Source: Oceanobacter sp. (GTDB lineage Bacteria > Pseudomonadota > Gammaproteobacteria > Pseudomonadales > Oceanobacteraceae). From it: a DNA stretch of 32,489 nt. Below, in pieces: positions 588 to 29,155 of this stretch (position 1 is the first letter of the stretch; every line of letters begins with the position of its first letter). Position numbers and translations under genes: made by a program. Under the pieces are notes generated by a model. That model saw only the letters and a program-made list of their open reading frames with translations. It was not told the origin of the DNA and made no database searches. The stretch spans positions 1-32,489 of the forward strand of contig NVWL01000027.1 of assembly GCA_002733645.1 (NCBI GenBank), read 5' to 3'.

Positions 588-1811
588 TTAGGCCGCTTGC
601 TCACAATACGCTTGCCCAAATATGAGCATGTCTCGTATTGAGCTAATATCAGCTCCATCAGACATTAATTCGTAATACCAATGGCTGTCGGTTACATCCC
701 CTACACATAAAACACCGACAATTTTATTCTCGCGTAGCACCAGTTTGCGATAGACACCTTCGCTGAGATCTTCGGTAGCGATAACGTCGCCGCCTTCGCT
801 GGCTTCGTATTCACCGATACTGTGCATGTCTAAGCCGGATACTTTTAGCTTAGTCAAATGAGTGCGTTCTTTATAGGGAGCAGTGTCATCATTTGATTTA
901 AGTATGGCCGCGAGTACTTTAGCTTGATCCCAAATAGGTGCGACTAAACCATACGTTTGGTTATCAAATTCACAACATTCACCCAGTGCATAAATACCTG
1001 GGGTGCACGTTTTCATTTGTTCATTAACACAAATACCGCGCTGAGTGGTTATCCCTGCGTCGACTGCTAATTCAATATTGGGTGCAATACCGGTAGCAAA
1101 CACGACGAGTTGTGTATCGAGTGTTTCTTCTCCGCGTTTGCTTTTTATTTCAATTTTCTGGATGGCGTCAGAATTACCATGTAATCGCACAGGGCTTGTG
1201 CCTGTGCGTACGTCAATACCGCGTTCAGCCAGTGAGGCTTCCAGTATGGAAGATGCGGTGGCATCTAACTGACGATTCATTAACACGGGGTTGCGGTGCA
1301 ATAGGGTGACATCAACCCCACGAAGCTTTAAACCCACCGCTGCTTCAACGCCTAATAAACCCGCCCCAATCACGGTGGCGTGTTTTAGGTTACCGAATTT
1401 TTCAACCATAGCATCGACATCGCTCATGGTGCGAAAGCCAATCACAGCAGGATGGTCGGCACCGTCAACGGGAGGAATAAACGATCGGCTTCCTGTGGCA
1501 AATACTAAGTCGCTATAGGGTAATGCACGCCCAGAGTTAGTTTCAACCTGTTGAGCTTGTACGTTAACTGCTTTAACGCCGTCCCCCAAAATAACCTCAA
1601 TACGGCGTTCTTGATACCAAGCATCGTCGTGAGGGGTAATGGCTTCTAGTGTTGTTTCATTAGCGAGTAAGGGTGACAGCATGATGCGATTGTAATGAGG
1701 GATATGCTCATCACCAATGACTTGAATTGCGTCGTATTGATGGTTGATGCCGAGTTCTTCAAGAACGCGGTTTGCCGCCATTCCGTTACCAATGATAACT
1801 AATGTTTGCAT
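588..1811 (-). CDS. NAD(P)/FAD-dependent oxidoreductase, NirB/NasB N-terminal type
   Basis: This is a two-dinucleotide-binding-domain flavoprotein of about 407 residues. An N-terminal FAD motif GNGMAANR (GxGxxxxR form, as in NirB/NasB), a second nucleotide site VIGAGLLGVEAA around residue 150, and the C-terminal FAD signature GIYALGECCEF are visible. It resembles the FAD/NADH part of assimilatory nitrite reductase but stops after that domain, with no siroheme/4Fe-4S module and no rubredoxin-like extension. A longer reading starts at 1826, but an AGGA site 6 bases before the Met at 1811 favours the shorter form. It is the last gene of the nitrate uptake operon, so it probably passes NAD(P)H electrons to a nitrate or nitrite reductase encoded elsewhere. 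That role is inferred from context. Confidence 0.8.
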   Translation of the reverse strand: MQTLVIIGNGMAANRVLEELGINHQYDAIQVIGDEHIPHYNRIMLSPLLANETTLEAITPHDDAWYQERRIEVILGDGVKAVNVQAQQVETNSGRALPYSDLVFATGSRSFIPPVDGADHPAVIGFRTMSDVDAMVEKFGNLKHATVIGAGLLGVEAAVGLKLRGVDVTLLHRNPVLMNRQLDATASSILEASLAERGIDVRTGTSPVRLHGNSDAIQKIEIKSKRGEETLDTQLVVFATGIAPNIELAVDAGITTQRGICVNEQMKTCTPGIYALGECCEFDNQTYGLVAPIWDQAKVLAAILKSNDDTAPYKERTHLTKLKVSGLDMHSIGEYEASEGGDVIATEDLSEGVYRKLVLRENKIVGVLCVGDVTDSHWYYELMSDGADISSIRDMLIFGQAYCEQAA

Positions 1812-1831
1812 GTTAAATCCTATCAATGAAC

Positions 1832-1889: not shown

Positions 1890-3035
1890 TCAGAATTTAG
1901 CCTGAGCCCAGAGCCAGAATTTGTCAGTATCGACTTTACCTGATGCATCATCACCCGCCGAGTAGAAGGCTGCTTTTGCGCCTACAGTAAAGGTGTCATC
2001 CAGTTTTTTCACGGCTAGTAGGTCTAGTTCGCTGCCTAGGTCTGTGCTGCCTTCAACGGCATCAAACATGTGGTAGAAACCAACCAGTTTTATGCCTTTT
2101 ACTTTAGTCACAGCTTTAACGTAGGTATCACTTAGGCCTGAAGCTGGAGTGCCAAGGAATTGATCCGCCCAGCCATTGAATTTATGTTTGGTCGCTAATG
2201 GTGTTTGAAAGCCATAGTTGCCATCATCGCTGCCCAGAGTCTCGTTACCAAGAGCAAGTGTCACACCACTTATAACGGCGCCAGCTTCAAGTGCCATGTA
2301 GGTCGCATCAAAGTCATCGGTACTTTGAGTTGCGTATTCAGCGGAGTAAATAAGCTTTGCGCTGTCTAACGTGGTTGAACCCGCGTATGACACACCGAAG
2401 GTGTCATTTTTTGCTTCAGTATCATCATCTTCAAGAAGGTAAGCGTATGCGGTCACTTTGCCGCTACCCACTTTGTAAGAGGCATTTAATAGGTGGTCTG
2501 TTACGTCAGCGTCAAATCTAGGCAGAATGCTGTTTACTTGATCAATGTAAGAATACTGCAGGCTAATGCCATCTTTAGCATAAGTGAATGTTGCTGCGTC
2601 GAAGGTCTGCTCATTAGCACGCCATCCAACGTTACCGACAAAGCGTGCGCCATCAAGAATAATGCGCTGGCGGCCTACGACGGCACCCATGCCATCTTTT
2701 TTGTAGCTGACTTGAGCACGGTTCCACTCACGAACTTCTGGGTCAGCAACAACATCGAAGCCAGCAGTGACGGGGGCGTAGTTCTCGATAATGGCATTAA
2801 CCACTTCGTATTCGGCCAAAAATTTGAAGCCGCTAAAGTCTTTACTTTCGTAACCAAATGCAGTGTCTGCAATTAAAGCGTTTGCTGATTTAGCTTCTGC
2901 GGCATCATCCGCATCTACCGCTTCAAAGCGCGCTTTAACATCGGCGTAAAACGTACCATCGCTGATCATGTCGGCATTAGCGCCTAATGTCGCGGTTCCC
3001 AATGCAATTGCTAATAACGTTTTTGTAGCTTTCAT
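1890..3035 (-). CDS. outer-membrane beta-barrel porin-like protein of the nitrate operon
   Basis: This is a secreted beta-barrel protein of about 381 residues. It has a signal peptide (MKATKTLLAIALGTATLGANA, cleavage after ANA), alternating polar/hydrophobic strands such as FYADVKARFEAV and LAEYEVVNAI, and a C-terminal Phe (LWAQAKF) typical of BAM-inserted barrels. It most resembles alginate-export-type or general porin-fold proteins, but I cannot assign a named family with certainty. The start at 3035 is preferred over 3050 because AAGGAG lies 6 bases before it. It sits directly downstream of the nitrate ABC ATPase gene in the same direction, which suggests that it admits nitrate or nitrite across the outer membrane. 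That substrate is inferred from position only. Confidence 0.7.
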   Translation of the reverse strand: MKATKTLLAIALGTATLGANADMISDGTFYADVKARFEAVDADDAAEAKSANALIADTAFGYESKDFSGFKFLAEYEVVNAIIENYAPVTAGFDVVADPEVREWNRAQVSYKKDGMGAVVGRQRIILDGARFVGNVGWRANEQTFDAATFTYAKDGISLQYSYIDQVNSILPRFDADVTDHLLNASYKVGSGKVTAYAYLLEDDDTEAKNDTFGVSYAGSTTLDSAKLIYSAEYATQSTDDFDATYMALEAGAVISGVTLALGNETLGSDDGNYGFQTPLATKHKFNGWADQFLGTPASGLSDTYVKAVTKVKGIKLVGFYHMFDAVEGSTDLGSELDLLAVKKLDDTFTVGAKAAFYSAGDDASGKVDTDKFWLWAQAKF

Positions 3036-3088
3036 GGCATTCTCCTTCATCGAAGCCTTGATTTATTTTTAAGTAATTTAATAATTAT

Positions 3089-3946
3089 TTAGGCGACTTT
3101 TTCGTCACTTTTATTAGAATCTTTATCAACACTTGTGGCTTTTTTGACCGTAGCCTCAACATCAACTTTTCTTTGTTTTTCATACAAGAAGCTAAGCACT
3201 TGCTGACGATACTTGTTGTACGTTGGATCATCAGCAAGTTGTATTCGATTACGTGGACGCTCTAGTTCAACGTCCAGGATTTCTCCGACGGTTGCAGATG
3301 GGCCATTAGTCATCATAACGATGCGGTCGGATAGCAACACGGCTTCATCCACGTCGTGAGTAATCATAATGACGGTATTGTTGAGGTCTTTTTGAATTTC
3401 CATCAATGAGTCTTGCAGGTGGGCGCGAGTCAGAGCATCCAGCGCACCGAATGGCTCATCCATCAATAACACCTGTGGTTCCATCGCTAGAGCACGAGCA
3501 ATACCTACGCGCTGCTTCATACCACCTGAAATTTCATCCGGGCGTTTATGCAAGGCGTGAGTCATGTGTACGAGTTCTAAGTTGTGCTCAATCCATTCCT
3601 TCATTTCTGATTTGGATTTTTTGCCTTTAAATACGCGTTTAACGGCAAGCTCAACATTTTGATACGCGGTCAACCAAGGCAGTAATGAATGGTTCTGGAA
3701 CACAACCGCACGCTCTGGACCGGGTTCATTCACTTCTTTACCTTGCAGTACCACACCACCTTGGGTTGCTTGATATAGGCCGGCAACAATATTCAGTACG
3801 GTAGATTTTCCGCAACCCGAGTGGCCAATAAGGGAAATAAATTCGCCTTTTTTGATTTTTAAATTAACGCCTTGCAGTGCACAAAAAGGACCTTTAGGGG
3901 TAGGGAATTCAATGCCCACATCTGTTAATTCTAGTAATGGATTCAT
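3089..3946 (-). CDS. nrtD: nitrate/nitrite ABC transporter ATP-binding protein (NrtD/NasD-like)
   Basis: This is an ABC ATPase of the nitrate/sulfonate/bicarbonate class, about 285 residues. Walker A GHSGCGKST, Q-loop region VVFQNHSLLPWLT, signature SGGMKQR, Walker B VLLMDEPFGALD and the H-loop ITHDVDEAV are all intact and in the expected order. The C-terminal tail after about residue 255 is lysine- and acid-rich and poorly conserved. A start at 3952 is possible, but the TGAGGAGA ribosome site is only one base from it and seven from the Met at 3946, so the second Met is preferred. The site overlaps the stop codon of the permease gene, implying translational coupling. It would energise import by the adjacent permease. 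Confidence 0.88.
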   Translation of the reverse strand: MNPLLELTDVGIEFPTPKGPFCALQGVNLKIKKGEFISLIGHSGCGKSTVLNIVAGLYQATQGGVVLQGKEVNEPGPERAVVFQNHSLLPWLTAYQNVELAVKRVFKGKKSKSEMKEWIEHNLELVHMTHALHKRPDEISGGMKQRVGIARALAMEPQVLLMDEPFGALDALTRAHLQDSLMEIQKDLNNTVIMITHDVDEAVLLSDRIVMMTNGPSATVGEILDVELERPRNRIQLADDPTYNKYRQQVLSFLYEKQRKVDVEATVKKATSVDKDSNKSDEKVA

Positions 3947-3957
3947 AATCATTCTCC

Positions 3958-4977
3958 TCAGCGTAATGTCGCTGCTTTATCCCATGAAACGTAACGCTGA
4001 ATAGTCAACATCAGGCGATCTAATAGAAAACCAATAAGGCCAATGGTAACGACAGCAACCATGATGCGGCCGAGTGAATCTGAACTGCCATTTTGGAATT
4101 CATCCCAAACAAACTTACCTAGGCCTGGGTTTTGCGCCAGCATTTCTGCGGCGATCAGTACCATCCAAGCGATGCTTAGTGATAAACGTAGGCCGGTAAA
4201 TACCATTGGTATTGAGGCTGGGATAACAATTTTTCGTACGTGTTCTAGGTAGTTCAGGCTAAGTACTTGGCTTACGTTCACTAGATCTTTAGGGATGGAA
4301 GCAACACCCACGGCGGTATTAATAACGGTTGGCCATAAGCAGCACAGCATCACGGTAATCATTGAAGTGACAAACGACTTAGGCACCATCGGGTCATCGC
4401 TTACGTATAGTGCAGATACCACCATGGTGACAATGGGTAACCAAGCAAGTGGCGATACAGGCTTAAAAATTTGAATAATCGGGTTAAAGGCGCTGTACAA
4501 ATTAGCACTTAAGCCAATAACAATACCCAGCGGTATAGCCAGTAAAGAGGCAAGCACAAAGCCGGTCAGTACAGTCACGAGGCTGGTACCAATTTGGTCT
4601 ATGTAGGTTGGCTTACCTGTGTAAGCACGAATCTTTGGAACATACGTAGGATCTTGTTCTACTCGTGCTTTATTTCGTACTTCTTGACGCTCGTAAAAAG
4701 CGTCTGCTTTATTACGCTCGGTAATATGTTCTGCAATCAAACCTTTTGATTGTTTATACACTTCGCCAGGGCCTGGGAATTGACCAAGCGAGGTGTTGAT
4801 ATTGCTAGCTGCGGCGTGCCAAACCATCAGAAAGACAACAATACCTGCGAGTGGAATGCCCACAGCTTTAATAATTGTTTGTATATTTCCTGATACGTCT
4901 TCACCTTTGGCGATGTTCACTATCGGTTCGAGCCAGGCTACTTTCGATAGGTTAAGGTTTGACAGGGCAATGTTCAT
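3958..4977 (-). CDS. nrtB: nitrate/nitrite ABC transporter permease (NrtB-like)
   Basis: This 339-residue inner-membrane permease has a first membrane segment near residues 37-57, a hydrophilic, charge-rich stretch near 75-120, and then a BPD-type permease domain with about five more helices. The cytoplasmic EAA-type coupling loop is visible as IPASIPMVFTGLRLSLSIAW. The Pro-rich stretch FKPVSPLAWLPI is characteristic of the NrtB/SsuC/TauC permease family. It lies between the binding-protein and ATPase genes, and its stop codon is embedded in the ATPase ribosome site. An AAGGAGTAA ribosome site precedes the start. Nitrate or nitrite is the likely substrate, given the binding protein and the leader control. 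Confidence 0.88.
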   Translation of the reverse strand: MNIALSNLNLSKVAWLEPIVNIAKGEDVSGNIQTIIKAVGIPLAGIVVFLMVWHAAASNINTSLGQFPGPGEVYKQSKGLIAEHITERNKADAFYERQEVRNKARVEQDPTYVPKIRAYTGKPTYIDQIGTSLVTVLTGFVLASLLAIPLGIVIGLSANLYSAFNPIIQIFKPVSPLAWLPIVTMVVSALYVSDDPMVPKSFVTSMITVMLCCLWPTVINTAVGVASIPKDLVNVSQVLSLNYLEHVRKIVIPASIPMVFTGLRLSLSIAWMVLIAAEMLAQNPGLGKFVWDEFQNGSSDSLGRIMVAVVTIGLIGFLLDRLMLTIQRYVSWDKAATLR

Positions 4978-5060: not shown

Positions 5061-6446
5061 TTAAAGCTTGTCGTCAGATTTCAAACCAATATTGAATTTT
5101 TCAAGATAGGCATTTGGTTTAGTACCGTCGTAGGTAATGCCGTCGATGAATTCAGATTGTGGTGGCTTGAAACCAGTTTCTGTACCGAAATCTGGGAAGT
5201 CTTTCGCTTTTAATTTCCCTTCTTTGATCAGCTCTTTAGCGGCTTCTGCATAGATGTCAGGACGGTAAACTTTTTTCGCAATGTCCATGTACCAGTCATC
5301 AGATTTGGCATCAGAAATCTGGCCCCAACGGCGCATTTGAGTTAAGTACCAAATTGCATCTGAGTAGTATGGGTAGGTGGCGTTGTAGCGGAAGAAAACG
5401 TTGAAATCTGGCACTTCACGTACGTCCCCTTTTTCGTACTCAAATGTACCTGTCATAGAGTTAGCAATAACGTCGTAATCCGCACCAACATATTGTGGTT
5501 TTGATAGAATTTTTACTGCCTCAGGACGGTTAGCATTGTTATTGGCATCTAGCCATTCCGCTGCACGGATCATCGCTTTTACGACTTTTTTGTGAGTGAT
5601 TGGGTTTTTCTCTGCCCAACCTTTGCTGACACCAAATACTTTCTCTGGGTTGTTTTTCCAGATTTCGTAATCGGTAATAACCGGAACACCGATGCCTTTA
5701 AATACCGCTTGTTGGTTCCAAGGTTCGCCAACGCAGTAACCGTAAATTGTTCCGGCTTCAAGTGTTGAAGGCATTTGTGGTGGAGGCGTTACTGAAAGCA
5801 GGGCATCTGCATCAATTTGACCAGAAGTATCGGCTTTGTGAGGTGCGTAGTAACCTGGGTTAATTCCGCCAGCCGCTAGCCAGTAACGTAATTCATAGTT
5901 GTGTGTGGAAACCGGGAATACCATACCCATGTTAAATGGCTTGCCTTCGGCTTTATATTTATCAACTACTGGCTTCAGTGCGTCGGCCTTAATAGGATGA
6001 ACTGGTTTACCGTTTTCATCTTTGGGAATATGCACTTTCATTTGTTCCCAAACATCGTTGGAAACGGTAATGCCATTACCATTTAAATCCATACTGAAGG
6101 CGGTAATGATGTCGGCTTTTGTACCGAAGCCAATGGTGGCACCTAGCGGCTGACCTGCTAGCATGTGAGCACCGTCTAACTGACCGTCGATAACGCGATC
6201 AAGGAGAACTTTCCAGTTTGCTTGCGCTTCAAGTGTTACGTAGAGGCCTTCGTCTTCGAAATACCCTTTTTCGTAAGCAATAGCTAGTGGAGCCATGTCA
6301 GTTAATTTAATAAAGCCAAATTTTAGCTCTTCTTTTTCTGCATATTCCACTGCACTGGTAAGTGGTGACGACATCGTTGCCACACCTGCGGCCAGTACAA
6401 GTGCGCTTTTCATAAATGAGCGGCGCATTGTCTTGATTCCTCGCAT
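5061..6446 (-). CDS. nrtA: nitrate/nitrite ABC transporter periplasmic binding protein (NrtA-like)
   Basis: This 461-residue solute-binding protein of the NrtA/CmpA family opens with a twin-arginine-like signal (RRSFMK at residues 8-13, a hydrophobic stretch, then cleavage near TSA). The mature part contains family-typical segments such as [40 protein letters not shown] and [14 protein letters not shown]. The length fits NrtA rather than the shorter sulfonate-binding proteins. Two starts are possible: 6446, after a GGGGA site, and 6428, after AGGA; both retain the RR motif. It is the first gene of the operon, and its leader carries the antitermination elements described separately. Nitrate or nitrite is the probable ligand. 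Confidence 0.9.
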
Positions 6447-6469: not shown

Positions 6470-6517
6470 AAAAAAAGGCGCAACGATAGTGACCTAAGTC
6501 GTATCGAAAGCGCCTTT
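6470..6517 (-). terminator. leader intrinsic terminator of the nitrate operon (attenuator)
   Basis: On the minus strand AAAGGCGC (6517-6510) pairs with GCGCCTTT (ending at 6474). Inner pairings CGATA/TATCG and GAC/GTC give one long hairpin, followed by a run of T down to 6470. It lies in the 5' leader before the first structural gene, so it is a regulatory attenuator rather than an end-of-operon terminator. Its 5' arm is also part of the second ANTAR hairpin. Confidence 0.85.
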
Positions 6518-6564
6518 GCTTTGTATATCTGAATTAAAAATTATAGACCTCGCCGTTGAGATCT
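6507..6564 (-). promoter_or_regulatory. two-hairpin ANTAR-type antitermination motif (NasT/NasR target)
   Basis: Two hexaloop hairpins lie in tandem on the minus strand. P1 spans 6564-6545: a 7-bp stem (with one G-U pair) closing the hexaloop AACGGC. P2 spans 6522-6507: a 5-bp stem AAAGC/GCTTT closing AAAGGC. Both loops have A at position 1 and G at position 4, the hallmark recognised by ANTAR-domain antiterminators such as NasR and NasT. The P2 loop and 3' arm are the same bases as the 5' arm of the terminator at 6510-6517, so stabilising P2 would prevent the terminator from forming. The regulator itself is not in this window. Confidence 0.85.
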
Positions 6565-6576
6565 TAAATTAGCTAA

Positions 6577-6592
6577 TACAAGTGCTGTGCCA
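6577..6592 (-). promoter_or_regulatory. sigma-54-type promoter of the nitrate operon
   Basis: The minus strand reads TGGCAC-N5-TTGTA from 6592 to 6577. The -24 GG and the -12 dinucleotide are separated by exactly ten bases, as sigma-54 requires, but the -12 pair is GT rather than the canonical GC. The predicted RNA start falls near 6567, immediately before the first ANTAR hairpin, which gives a leader of about 120 bases. Confidence 0.7.
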
Positions 6593-6644: not shown

Positions 6645-6790
6645 TGCACCAGAGATAATCATGAATACAGGGCGATAAATAGGTATGCATATTTATGGTG
6701 CAAAGGCGGTGTAGGGCTGTTTCTGAGGAGTAAACAGATGTCTGATATCTTTTGGTGCGCAGGGCTTTAAATGAGTCATTCCTTGGTGCA
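6645..6790 (-). promoter_or_regulatory. cluster of NtrC-like binding sites upstream of the sigma-54 promoter
   Basis: The best site, 6686-6702, reads TGCACCATAAATATGCA on the minus strand and matches the NtrC consensus TGCACCAAAATGGTGCA at 13 of 17 positions. Strong half sites lie at 6645-6651 (TGCACCA on plus), 6743-6759 (CGCACCAAAA... on minus) and 6785-6790 (TGCACC on minus). All are roughly 50-220 bp upstream of the sigma-54 element, where bacterial enhancer-binding proteins normally sit. Confidence 0.6.
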
Positions 6791-7148: not shown

Positions 7149-8012
7149 ATGAAAACACCAAAGTCTATCCTGCCACTAGTCGAAGACGGCATTGTTGATG
7201 AGGTGATCTCACAGCTGATGAGCGGTAAGGAAGCCACGGTTTACATCGTACGTTGTGGCGATGAAGTTCGTTGCGCCAAGGTATACAAAGACGCAGCAAA
7301 ACGTAGCTTTAAGAAAGCAGTTCAGTATCGTGAAGGTCGCAGTGTGCGTAATAGCCGCCGTGGGCGAGCGATGGAGAAAGGCAGTAAGTTTGGTCGGCAG
7401 CAGCAAGAAGAAGTTTGGCAAAATGCCGAAGTCGATGCCTTGTATCGCTTAGCGGCAGCTGGGGTGCGCGTGCCGCAGCCTTATGGCTGTTTCAATGGTG
7501 TGCTGATCATGGATTTGGTGTCTGACGACGAAGGTAATGTTGCGCCACGGCTCAATGACGTGAGCATGTCCGAAGAGCAAGCCCTTGAAGATCATGCCGA
7601 AATCATGGATTCCATCAAGCTCATGCTGATAGAAGGCATTATCCACGGGGACCTTTCTGAGTTTAATGTATTAGTTGATGATTACGGCCCCGTTATTATC
7701 GATCTGCCTCAGGCCGTGGATGCGGCGGGAAATAACAACGCATTTGCGATGCTTGATCGTGATGTGCGCAATATGTCTCAGTACTACGGTCAGTATGCTC
7801 CCCAGCTTTTGCAAACCAAATACGCGAAAGAGATGTGGGCTTTATACGAAGATGGCGAGTTGCTTGTCGATACCGAGCTGACCGGTGAATTTGAAGATGA
7901 TACCGAAAGCGCCGATGTTGATTCTGTCATGATGTCGATTAAAGCAGCGCTTGAGGAAGAAGAAGAACGCTTAGCGCGTGTGAGTGAAGACGACAGCGAC
8001 GACGAGCTATAA
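7149..8012 (+). CDS. RIO1-type serine/threonine protein kinase
   Basis: This is a 287-residue atypical protein kinase of the RIO family. A glycine-poor nucleotide loop (MSGKEATVYIV, residues 24-34), the ATP-anchoring Lys44 in AKVYK, the catalytic loop HGDLSEFNVL with Asp168 and Asn173, and the metal-binding Asp185 in IIDLPQ are all present, so it should be active. The RIO-specific insertion after the Lys strand (about residues 50-90, very basic: RSVRNSRRGRAMEKGSKFGR) is also visible. The last 45 residues are strongly acidic, ending DDSDDEL. Eukaryotic and archaeal relatives act in small-subunit ribosome maturation; the bacterial role is not settled. No good Shine-Dalgarno precedes the start. 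It converges with the chemotaxis gene. Confidence 0.9.
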   Translation: MKTPKSILPLVEDGIVDEVISQLMSGKEATVYIVRCGDEVRCAKVYKDAAKRSFKKAVQYREGRSVRNSRRGRAMEKGSKFGRQQQEEVWQNAEVDALYRLAAAGVRVPQPYGCFNGVLIMDLVSDDEGNVAPRLNDVSMSEEQALEDHAEIMDSIKLMLIEGIIHGDLSEFNVLVDDYGPVIIDLPQAVDAAGNNNAFAMLDRDVRNMSQYYGQYAPQLLQTKYAKEMWALYEDGELLVDTELTGEFEDDTESADVDSVMMSIKAALEEEEERLARVSEDDSDDEL

Positions 8013-28100: not shown

Positions 28101-29056
28101 GGCAGCGTCTATGGTCACAAACCAGCTACGAAATTCAGGCACTGCGTGACAATGCTGATTGCGCGAAGCAAGAATTCGACGCACTGCTCGATGCAGAAAA
28201 CCCAGGTATTCATGCTGAATTAACCTTCGATATTAACGAAGACATCTGTGCTGAACTTCCAACGGATAACAAACCGAACATCGCCATCTTGCGTGAGCAA
28301 GGGGTGAATGGTCAGATTGAAATGGCCGCCGCCTTTGATCGCGCTGGCTTCAACACCGTTGACGTACACATGAGCGACGTATTGTCGGGCGCTGTGACCT
28401 TTGAAAGCTTCCGTGGCCTAGTCGCGTGTGGTGGTTTCTCCTACGGTGACGTACTCGGTGCCGGTGAAGGTTGGGCAAAATCCATCTTGTTCAACGACCA
28501 AGCACGTGGCCAGTTTAAAGCCTTCTTCGAACGCGAAGATACCTTTGCGCTGGGCGTGTGTAACGGTTGTCAGATGCTATCCAACCTACATGAACTGATT
28601 CCGGGTGCTGAGCACTGGCCACACTTTGTACGCAACATGAGCGAACAGTTTGAAGCCCGTGTCTCAATGGTTGAGATTCAAGAATCCGACTCCGTATTCC
28701 TTGCGGGCATGGCAGGCTCACGTATGCCAATCGCCGTGGCGCATGGTGAAGGCCGTGCTGAATTTGGTGCCGATAGCGACATTGATGAACTAGCAGGCCA
28801 GATAGCGCTACGTTATGTTGATAACTACGGCCAAGTGACCGAGCAATACCCACTGAACCCGAACGGTTCACCACAGGGTATCACCGGTTTAACCGCCAAC
28901 GACGGTCGTGTCACCATCATGATGCCGCACCCAGAACGAGTATTCCGTGCCATTCAAAACTCCTACATCCCTAACAGCCAAGACGGGGAATGGAGCGAAG
29001 ACGGTGCGTGGATGCGCATGTTCCGCAATGCGCGCGCGTGGTGTGAAGAGAATTAA
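25151..29056 (+). CDS. purL: phosphoribosylformylglycinamidine synthase (single-chain FGAM synthase)
   Basis: This 1301-residue enzyme is the large, fused PurL found in gammaproteobacteria; it converts FGAR and glutamine to FGAM in purine synthesis. The order is the typical N-terminal domain ([14 protein letters not shown]), a linker, an FGAM synthase core with [16 protein letters not shown] and [33 protein letters not shown], a second AIRS-like half, and a C-terminal class I glutamine amidotransferase domain from about residue 1040. The nucleophile Cys1137 lies in GVCNGCQML and the catalytic His is in MPHPERVF. Nothing is missing. A TTTGGAG site precedes the start. It is a monocistronic unit with its own terminator. 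Confidence 0.97.
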
Positions 29057-29111
29057 AATTATTTGATTCACATTGCAGGAGGGGTTCAGGCAGCTTGCTG
29101 CCTAACCGCGA

Positions 29112-29137
29112 AAAAAGGCCGCAACTGCGGCCTTTTT
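29112..29137 (+). terminator. intrinsic (bidirectional-looking) terminator after purL
   Basis: GGCCGC (29117-29122) pairs with GCGGCC (29127-29132) across a four-base AACT loop, flanked by a run of A before and a run of T after, extending the stem. It would work in both directions. Confidence 0.9.
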
Positions 29138-29155
29138 GTTGTCTATAAGCTTTTG

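Follow-up and report, generated by a model that had tools for sequence, protein, structure and literature searches.

A leader with two A1/G4 hexaloop hairpins precedes nrtABC-like genes in Oceanobacter sp. and probably acts as a NasR-controlled antitermination switch

We analyzed a stretch of 32,489 nucleotides (the window) from Oceanobacter sp. (Gammaproteobacteria; GenBank assembly GCA_002733645.1, contig NVWL01000027.1). Five genes on the minus strand lie downstream of the leader studied here, beginning with three that resemble the nitrate ABC transporter genes nrtABC (Table 1). No NCBIfam nitrate model scored the NrtA-like protein above its cut-off. For comparison we used the best 80 of 588 nrtA loci, among which the closest named locus was that of Thalassolituus marinus (89%). 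Elsewhere in the window (29048-29149, plus strand), a weak match to the Rfam family Atu_C8 (25.5 bits; gathering score 50) was in large part a hairpin resembling a terminator, located where a 1301-residue frame ends; we take this frame to be purL-like.

Table 1. Predicted features of the leader, its upstream region, and the genes behind it.
Feature	Position	Strand	Basis
NtrC-like enhancer site TGCACC-N5-TATGCA (weak)	6686..6702	-	10/12 to consensus; 2/100 shuffles as good
Sigma-54-like -24/-12 promoter TGGCACAGCACTTGTA, predicted RNA start ~6566	6577..6592	-	11/11 on own score
Hairpin P1, hexaloop AACGGC (A1, G4)	6545..6564	-	Folding and covariation
Hairpin P2, hexaloop AAAGGC (A1, G4), antiterminator	6507..6522	-	Folding and covariation
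Intrinsic terminator, 5' arm 6517-6510, 3' arm 6481-6474	6470..6517	-	Folding
nrtA-like nitrate ABC transporter substrate-binding protein, first gene	5061..6446	-	PF13379 330.5 bits; precedes nrtBC-like genes
nrtB-like permease	3958..4977	-	TIGR01183 160.6 bits, below cut-off 209.05
nrtC/D-like ATPase	3089..3952	-	TIGR01184 357.7 bits, over cut-off 291.8
Porin-like outer-membrane protein	1890..3050	-	PF13372 19.6 bits, below cut-off
NirB-N-terminal-like FAD/NAD reductase	588..1826	-	TIGR02374 355.1 bits over positions 1-400 of 794, below cut-off

Read on the minus strand, the leader carries the two hexaloops with A at position 1 and G at position 4 that a sequence-only reading had described. 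P1 (AGATCTC-AACGGC-GAGGTCT, 7 pairs; A1 at 6557, G4 at 6554) and P2 (AAAGC-AAAGGC-GCTTT, 5 pairs; A1 at 6517, G4 at 6514) both have a C-G closing pair under the loop and are separated by a linker of 22 bases. The terminator stem is formed by AAAGGCGC pairing with GCGCCTTT, with a T run at 6476-6470. Because its 5' arm starts with the first P2 loop base, P2 and the terminator are mutually exclusive, as the same reading had claimed. Of 22 leaders chosen by their hairpins and not by terminator overlap, 21 showed the same overlap, starting at loop base 1 in 20 and at base 2 in L027; L051 did not.

The free minus-strand fold consisted of P1 and the terminator (z = -4.35), and none of 200 shuffled sequences was equally stable. 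For the 98-nt leader, this free fold reached -29.6 kcal/mol, versus -18.5 kcal/mol when P1 and P2 were forced. When growing transcripts were folded (n = 12), P1 and P2 were predicted for ends from 6506 to 6480 and the terminator for ends from 6478 onward, the succession that would suit a switch needing timely capture by a protein. The plus strand of the leader also folded well (z = -3.96), but as the complement of a strong hairpin; a plus-strand reading was further ruled out by the nitrate genes lying on the minus strand and by the nearest plus-strand gene starting at 7149.

To assess conservation of the two hairpins, we aligned 14 leaders (the window and 13 loci, with L027 left out) using P1 and P2 as the structure. 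Three of five covariation measures lay beyond all 500 shuffles: standard pairs occupied 84.4% of cells (64.0 in shuffles), 41 cells were changed on both sides (14.0 in shuffles), and the covariation score was 0.730 (0.281 shuffled; 0.110-0.220 for slid structures). The double changes are better evidence than the paired percentage, which is biased towards the structure because the sites were picked for having hairpins. The other two, weaker measures were reached by some shuffles, namely 9 pairs with a double change (7.0 in shuffles; reached by 45 of 500) and 22 further pair types (19.0; reached by 57 of 500), and 2 of the 14 sequences form the outermost pair of P2. These data bear on whether the leader is a constitutive attenuator only, with P1 and P2 as by-products of a terminator that fixes the basal level. 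Such an arrangement would agree with a free fold of P1 plus terminator; however, P2 is absent from the full-leader free fold, yet its pairs covary and its loop is near-invariant, and the genome does contain an ANTAR gene. We regard a purely constitutive attenuator as very improbable.

Two models were used to search for further leaders. R2 comprises 10 leaders, with the window and its close relatives (L002, L003, and L047) excluded, whereas R1 includes all four; loci with long linkers (L020, L034, L036, L061, and L064) and L026, which shares its assembly with L024, were left out of both. A covariance-model check of the leader came out in its favor, as R2 scored it at 32.8 bits (E = 2.1e-5 over 116 kb). 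The window site was not in the list from the genome-wide R2 search, in which 150 of 1073 candidates were scored at the first pass and a 31.5-bit site corresponded to E = 0.0014. Across 35 genomes (the window's own and 34 relatives), R1 gave 26 matches in 16 genomes, of which 15 were before nrtA-like genes and 8 before formate/nitrite transporter genes, with gene labels taken from ORF starts and Pfam run on the window genome's own transporter only. The remaining three (L142, L147, and L148) lie inside coding sequence and were rejected as false. All nine genomes of the genus had the leader before nrtA and six of nine had it before the transporter gene, although R1 hits within the genus are not independent of the window because the model includes the window, L002, L003, and L047.

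Of the best 80 of 588 nrtA loci, 20 had the loops AAYGRY in P1 and AAAGRY in P2 together with a terminator candidate, by a scan whose scoring favors the expected loops and which reports one hairpin pair per locus. Together with the leader match before nrtA in every genome of the genus, this indicates that the A1/G4 loops are kept in homologous leaders, as expected from the earlier proposal. The other 60 loci had other loops, lacked a terminator after P2, or yielded none by this simple scan; L069, with loops AATGAC and AAAGGT but no terminator after P2, was excluded from the 20 on that ground, and several uncounted loci, such as Alteromonas L017, have other A1/G4 loops. An ANTAR match was found in 68 of the 78 genomes that hold these best 80 loci (10 had none), including 19 of 19 genomes with the AAYGRY/AAAGRY pair versus 49 of 59 without it.

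The sequence-only reading had placed the leader in the NasR/NasT type, which is supported here with NasR as the partner. The search for an ANTAR regulator in the genome, whose completeness is rated at 99.44%, returned a single match, in a frame of 427 residues that scored 175.5 bits for the NIT domain and 73.3 bits for the ANTAR domain; the same ANTAR search gave no match in 14 control genomes. The best PDB match of this NIT-ANTAR protein was Klebsiella oxytoca NasR (4akk, E = 1.6e-49), and no REC-ANTAR protein (NasT) was found in the genome. By its sequence, the protein is thus NasR rather than NasT, and its gene lies on another contig than the nrtABC-like operon. The available parts of PMC7496416 name R340, K345, K347, W362, R366, and N373 of NasR for RNA binding. 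R340, K341, K345, K347, R366, and N373 are identical in the Oceanobacter protein, and W362 is replaced by Y, an aromatic residue being usual at this position in NIT-ANTAR proteins according to the same text (PMC7496416). The nitrate-pocket residues E175 and R176 are also identical. Several residues proposed to couple the NIT and ANTAR domains are changed (E191 to D, R193 to Q, Q194 to S, R199 to L, Q204 to A, and E359 to D), whereas Q174, D201, and Q203 are kept, so the coupling may differ in detail from that in K. oxytoca.

We also examined the regulators of related genomes. An ANTAR gene was present in all nine genomes of the genus. In eight of them the ANTAR frame has 426-451 codons, as for NasR (Pfam was run on three of these, the window's own, G001, and G002). 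In the ninth, G006, the sole ANTAR match is NasT (REC + ANTAR), followed by a NasS-like protein, so labeled from its NMT1_2 domain, directly before the leader; the loci concerned are L100 and L134. In G009, a member of the same family, the nrtA leader follows a NasT/NasS-like pair, and a NIT-ANTAR gene precedes a gene for a formate/nitrite transporter. Klebsiella, as described in the available portion of PMC5424462, has nasR standing in place of nasTS. These NasT and NasS-like genes directly before such leaders in G006 and G009 are also what might favor another ANTAR protein, either NasT with NasS or an unassembled one, running the switch in the window. Given that the sole ANTAR match in a genome 99.44% complete is a NIT-ANTAR protein, we consider control by an ANTAR protein other than the NasR found here very unlikely. 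Behind nasR in G009, a site at L096:2278-2306 seems to have the loops AATGTG and ACAGAC, compared with AACGGC and AAAGGC behind the nasT pair; the R2 search did not find this site, and the differing loops perhaps provide insulation in this one case.

Upstream of the leader, a sigma-54-like promoter was scored against the -24/-12 consensus. The predicted RNA start lies about two bases 5' of P1, which fits the earlier proposal that transcription begins just before this hairpin. With the box sought within 90 bases of each leader, a score of at least 10/11 was reached by 22 of 23 non-coding R1 hits (the leader studied here included) versus 39 of 2300 shuffled stretches. In 21 leaders, the start predicted from the box fell between 9 bases before and 1 base after the first modeled P1 base, and in one leader it lay 19 bases before. 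The genome also contains rpoN. For NtrC, with the consensus TGCACC-N5-GGTGCA, best matches over 13 leaders spanned 7 to 10, and at least 13 of 100 shuffles did equally well for 5 of these leaders; the evidence for NtrC-like sites before the leaders is therefore weak. A sigma-70-like site at 6567-6540 that scores 10/12 would, if used, give an RNA without P1 that starts inside the linker, leaving P2 and the terminator alone to matter, but the region holds 2 such sites versus 2.5 in shuffles, P1 is conserved with covariation, and related leaders carry the sigma-54-like box at a matching distance, which makes this the least credible of the alternatives.

Based on these sequence comparisons, we hold it highly probable that the leader is a NasR-controlled transcription antitermination switch ahead of the nrtABC-like operon for nitrate uptake. 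When nitrogen is limiting, sigma-54 polymerase, probably with NtrC, would start about two bases upstream of P1. Without nitrate, P1 and then the terminator are predicted to fold, the latter recruiting the loop and 3' stem of P2 for its 5' arm; transcription would then stop in the T run at 6476-6470. With nitrate or nitrite, by analogy with K. oxytoca NasR, the NIT domain would free the ANTAR domain, and a NasR dimer would grip the P1 and P2 hexaloops; with P2 held, terminator formation would be blocked, allowing transcription of nrtABC and the genes that follow. This would place the nitrate uptake of this gammaproteobacterium under a known kind of nitrate sensor.

A second leader was identified in the same genome (G000:C24:91820-91873, corresponding to L122:2821-2874), with loops AATGGC and AACGGC and a terminator whose 5' arm, AACGGCGTCG, runs from loop base 1. 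It was matched by R1 (E = 0.0036), by R2 (E = 0.0014), and by the Rfam narK RNA model (RF03032; E = 2.9e-4, 32.9 bits, below the gathering score of 43.2). The leader lies upstream of a formate/nitrite transporter gene followed by a PP2C-protein kinase fusion gene, 223 bases past which the contig ends. It would bring the transporter under the same NasR control, adding another operon to the likely NasR regulon. A third candidate (C22:5717-5785; 20.3 bits, E = 0.64) overlaps the start of an opposite-strand frame and was set aside as a chance match.

We further analyzed the relationship of these leaders to the narK RNA. The RF03032 consensus can be read as a sigma-54-like box plus two hairpins, one with the loop AACGGC and one of sequence CGAC-AAAGAC-GUCG. 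The model scored the window leader at 14.9 bits (E = 2.6), short of the gathering score of 43.2; a whole-window Rfam search with E up to 1 gave no narK match at the leader, and Rfam at gathering score had no hits on 20 of the best 80 of 588 nrtA loci. In 274 genomes of the class, narK matches (E ≤ 0.001) occurred in 13, two of them over the gathering score, and ANTAR genes in 87. An ANTAR gene was present in 12 of the 13 genomes with a narK match versus 75 of the 261 without (one-sided Fisher test, 5.8e-6; 1.7e-5 without the window's own genome), in a test that treats species as independent, which they are not, two sharing a genus. In the 11 other genomes with both, the narK match nearest to the ANTAR gene was 54 bases to 9.2 kb away, within 1.4 kb in nine of them; in the window's genome the two are on different contigs. 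Thirteen of 14 narK matches have two A1/G4 hexaloops and a T-ending helix of at least 6 pairs starting in the P2 loop (start offset 0-3, just 6 pairs in L110 and L120, counted without a shuffle baseline), and the one that failed, L117, is from the single narK genome without an ANTAR gene. R2 re-found 10 of the 13 narK loci at E ≤ 0.0032, as well as L122, which holds the fourteenth match; L117 was found only at E = 0.53, and L116 and L119 were not found. As a separate observation, the usual pair in L115 and L118 is preceded by a third hexaloop hairpin (AATGGC), which lies just downstream of an ANTAR gene.

Because of the ANTAR association, the overlap of terminator and P2, and the re-finding by R2, RF03032 (matches at L108-L121) very probably represents the NasT/NasR antitermination switch together with its sigma-54 promoter. 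Within one genus, the same leader would be served either by one-component NasR or by NasT plus a NasS-like partner, the regulator having been exchanged while the RNA switch was kept. We consider the two parts jointly, the identity of RF03032 and the exchange of regulators, to be likely. If true, the Rfam family would gain a function and a protein partner, and a genus with the same RNA and two regulator kinds would offer a natural case for ANTAR protein-RNA compatibility. Our literature search found no paper naming narK RNA or RF03032, the motif's original description lying outside that search. For Bradyrhizobium diazoefficiens, the available part of PMC6759348 describes predicted NasT-recognizable hairpins in the leaders of narK and bjgb. 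It reports, however, that under denitrifying conditions narK expression rose in a nasT mutant, at odds with the simple reading that NasT activates narK there.

Compared with known systems, the window leader shares with the Rfam narK RNA the sigma-54-like box, the AACGGC hairpin, and a second hexaloop hairpin, but it has a longer linker and the low model score given above. The EutV antiterminators, as outlined in the available text of PMC8934654, likewise have a dual hexaloop and a mutually exclusive terminator, but they belong to the eut operon and a REC-ANTAR protein. The NasS-NasT nas leaders of Paracoccus, Azotobacter, Pseudomonas, and Bradyrhizobium are also hairpin leaders for an ANTAR protein in the available parts of PMC3795266, PMC5424462, and PMC6759348; unlike in those systems, a REC-ANTAR protein was not found in this genome, though a relative in the genus has one. 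K. oxytoca NasR/nasF differs in that nasR here is on a different contig from the operon, several proposed NIT-ANTAR coupling residues are changed, and the genes comprise an nrtABC-like set with a porin-like protein and a NirB-like reductase. In common with the NasR/nasF system, whose mechanism and layout are already published as far as the available parts of PMC3369931 and PMC7496416 describe them, there is a NIT-ANTAR regulator and there are two A1/G4 hexaloops with C-G closing pairs. Judged against the published description of nasF, to the extent available, P2 is likewise embedded in an intrinsic terminator with a nitrate-assimilation operon downstream. The leader is very probably an example, clear but ordinary, of a known mechanism, well shown at the sequence level.
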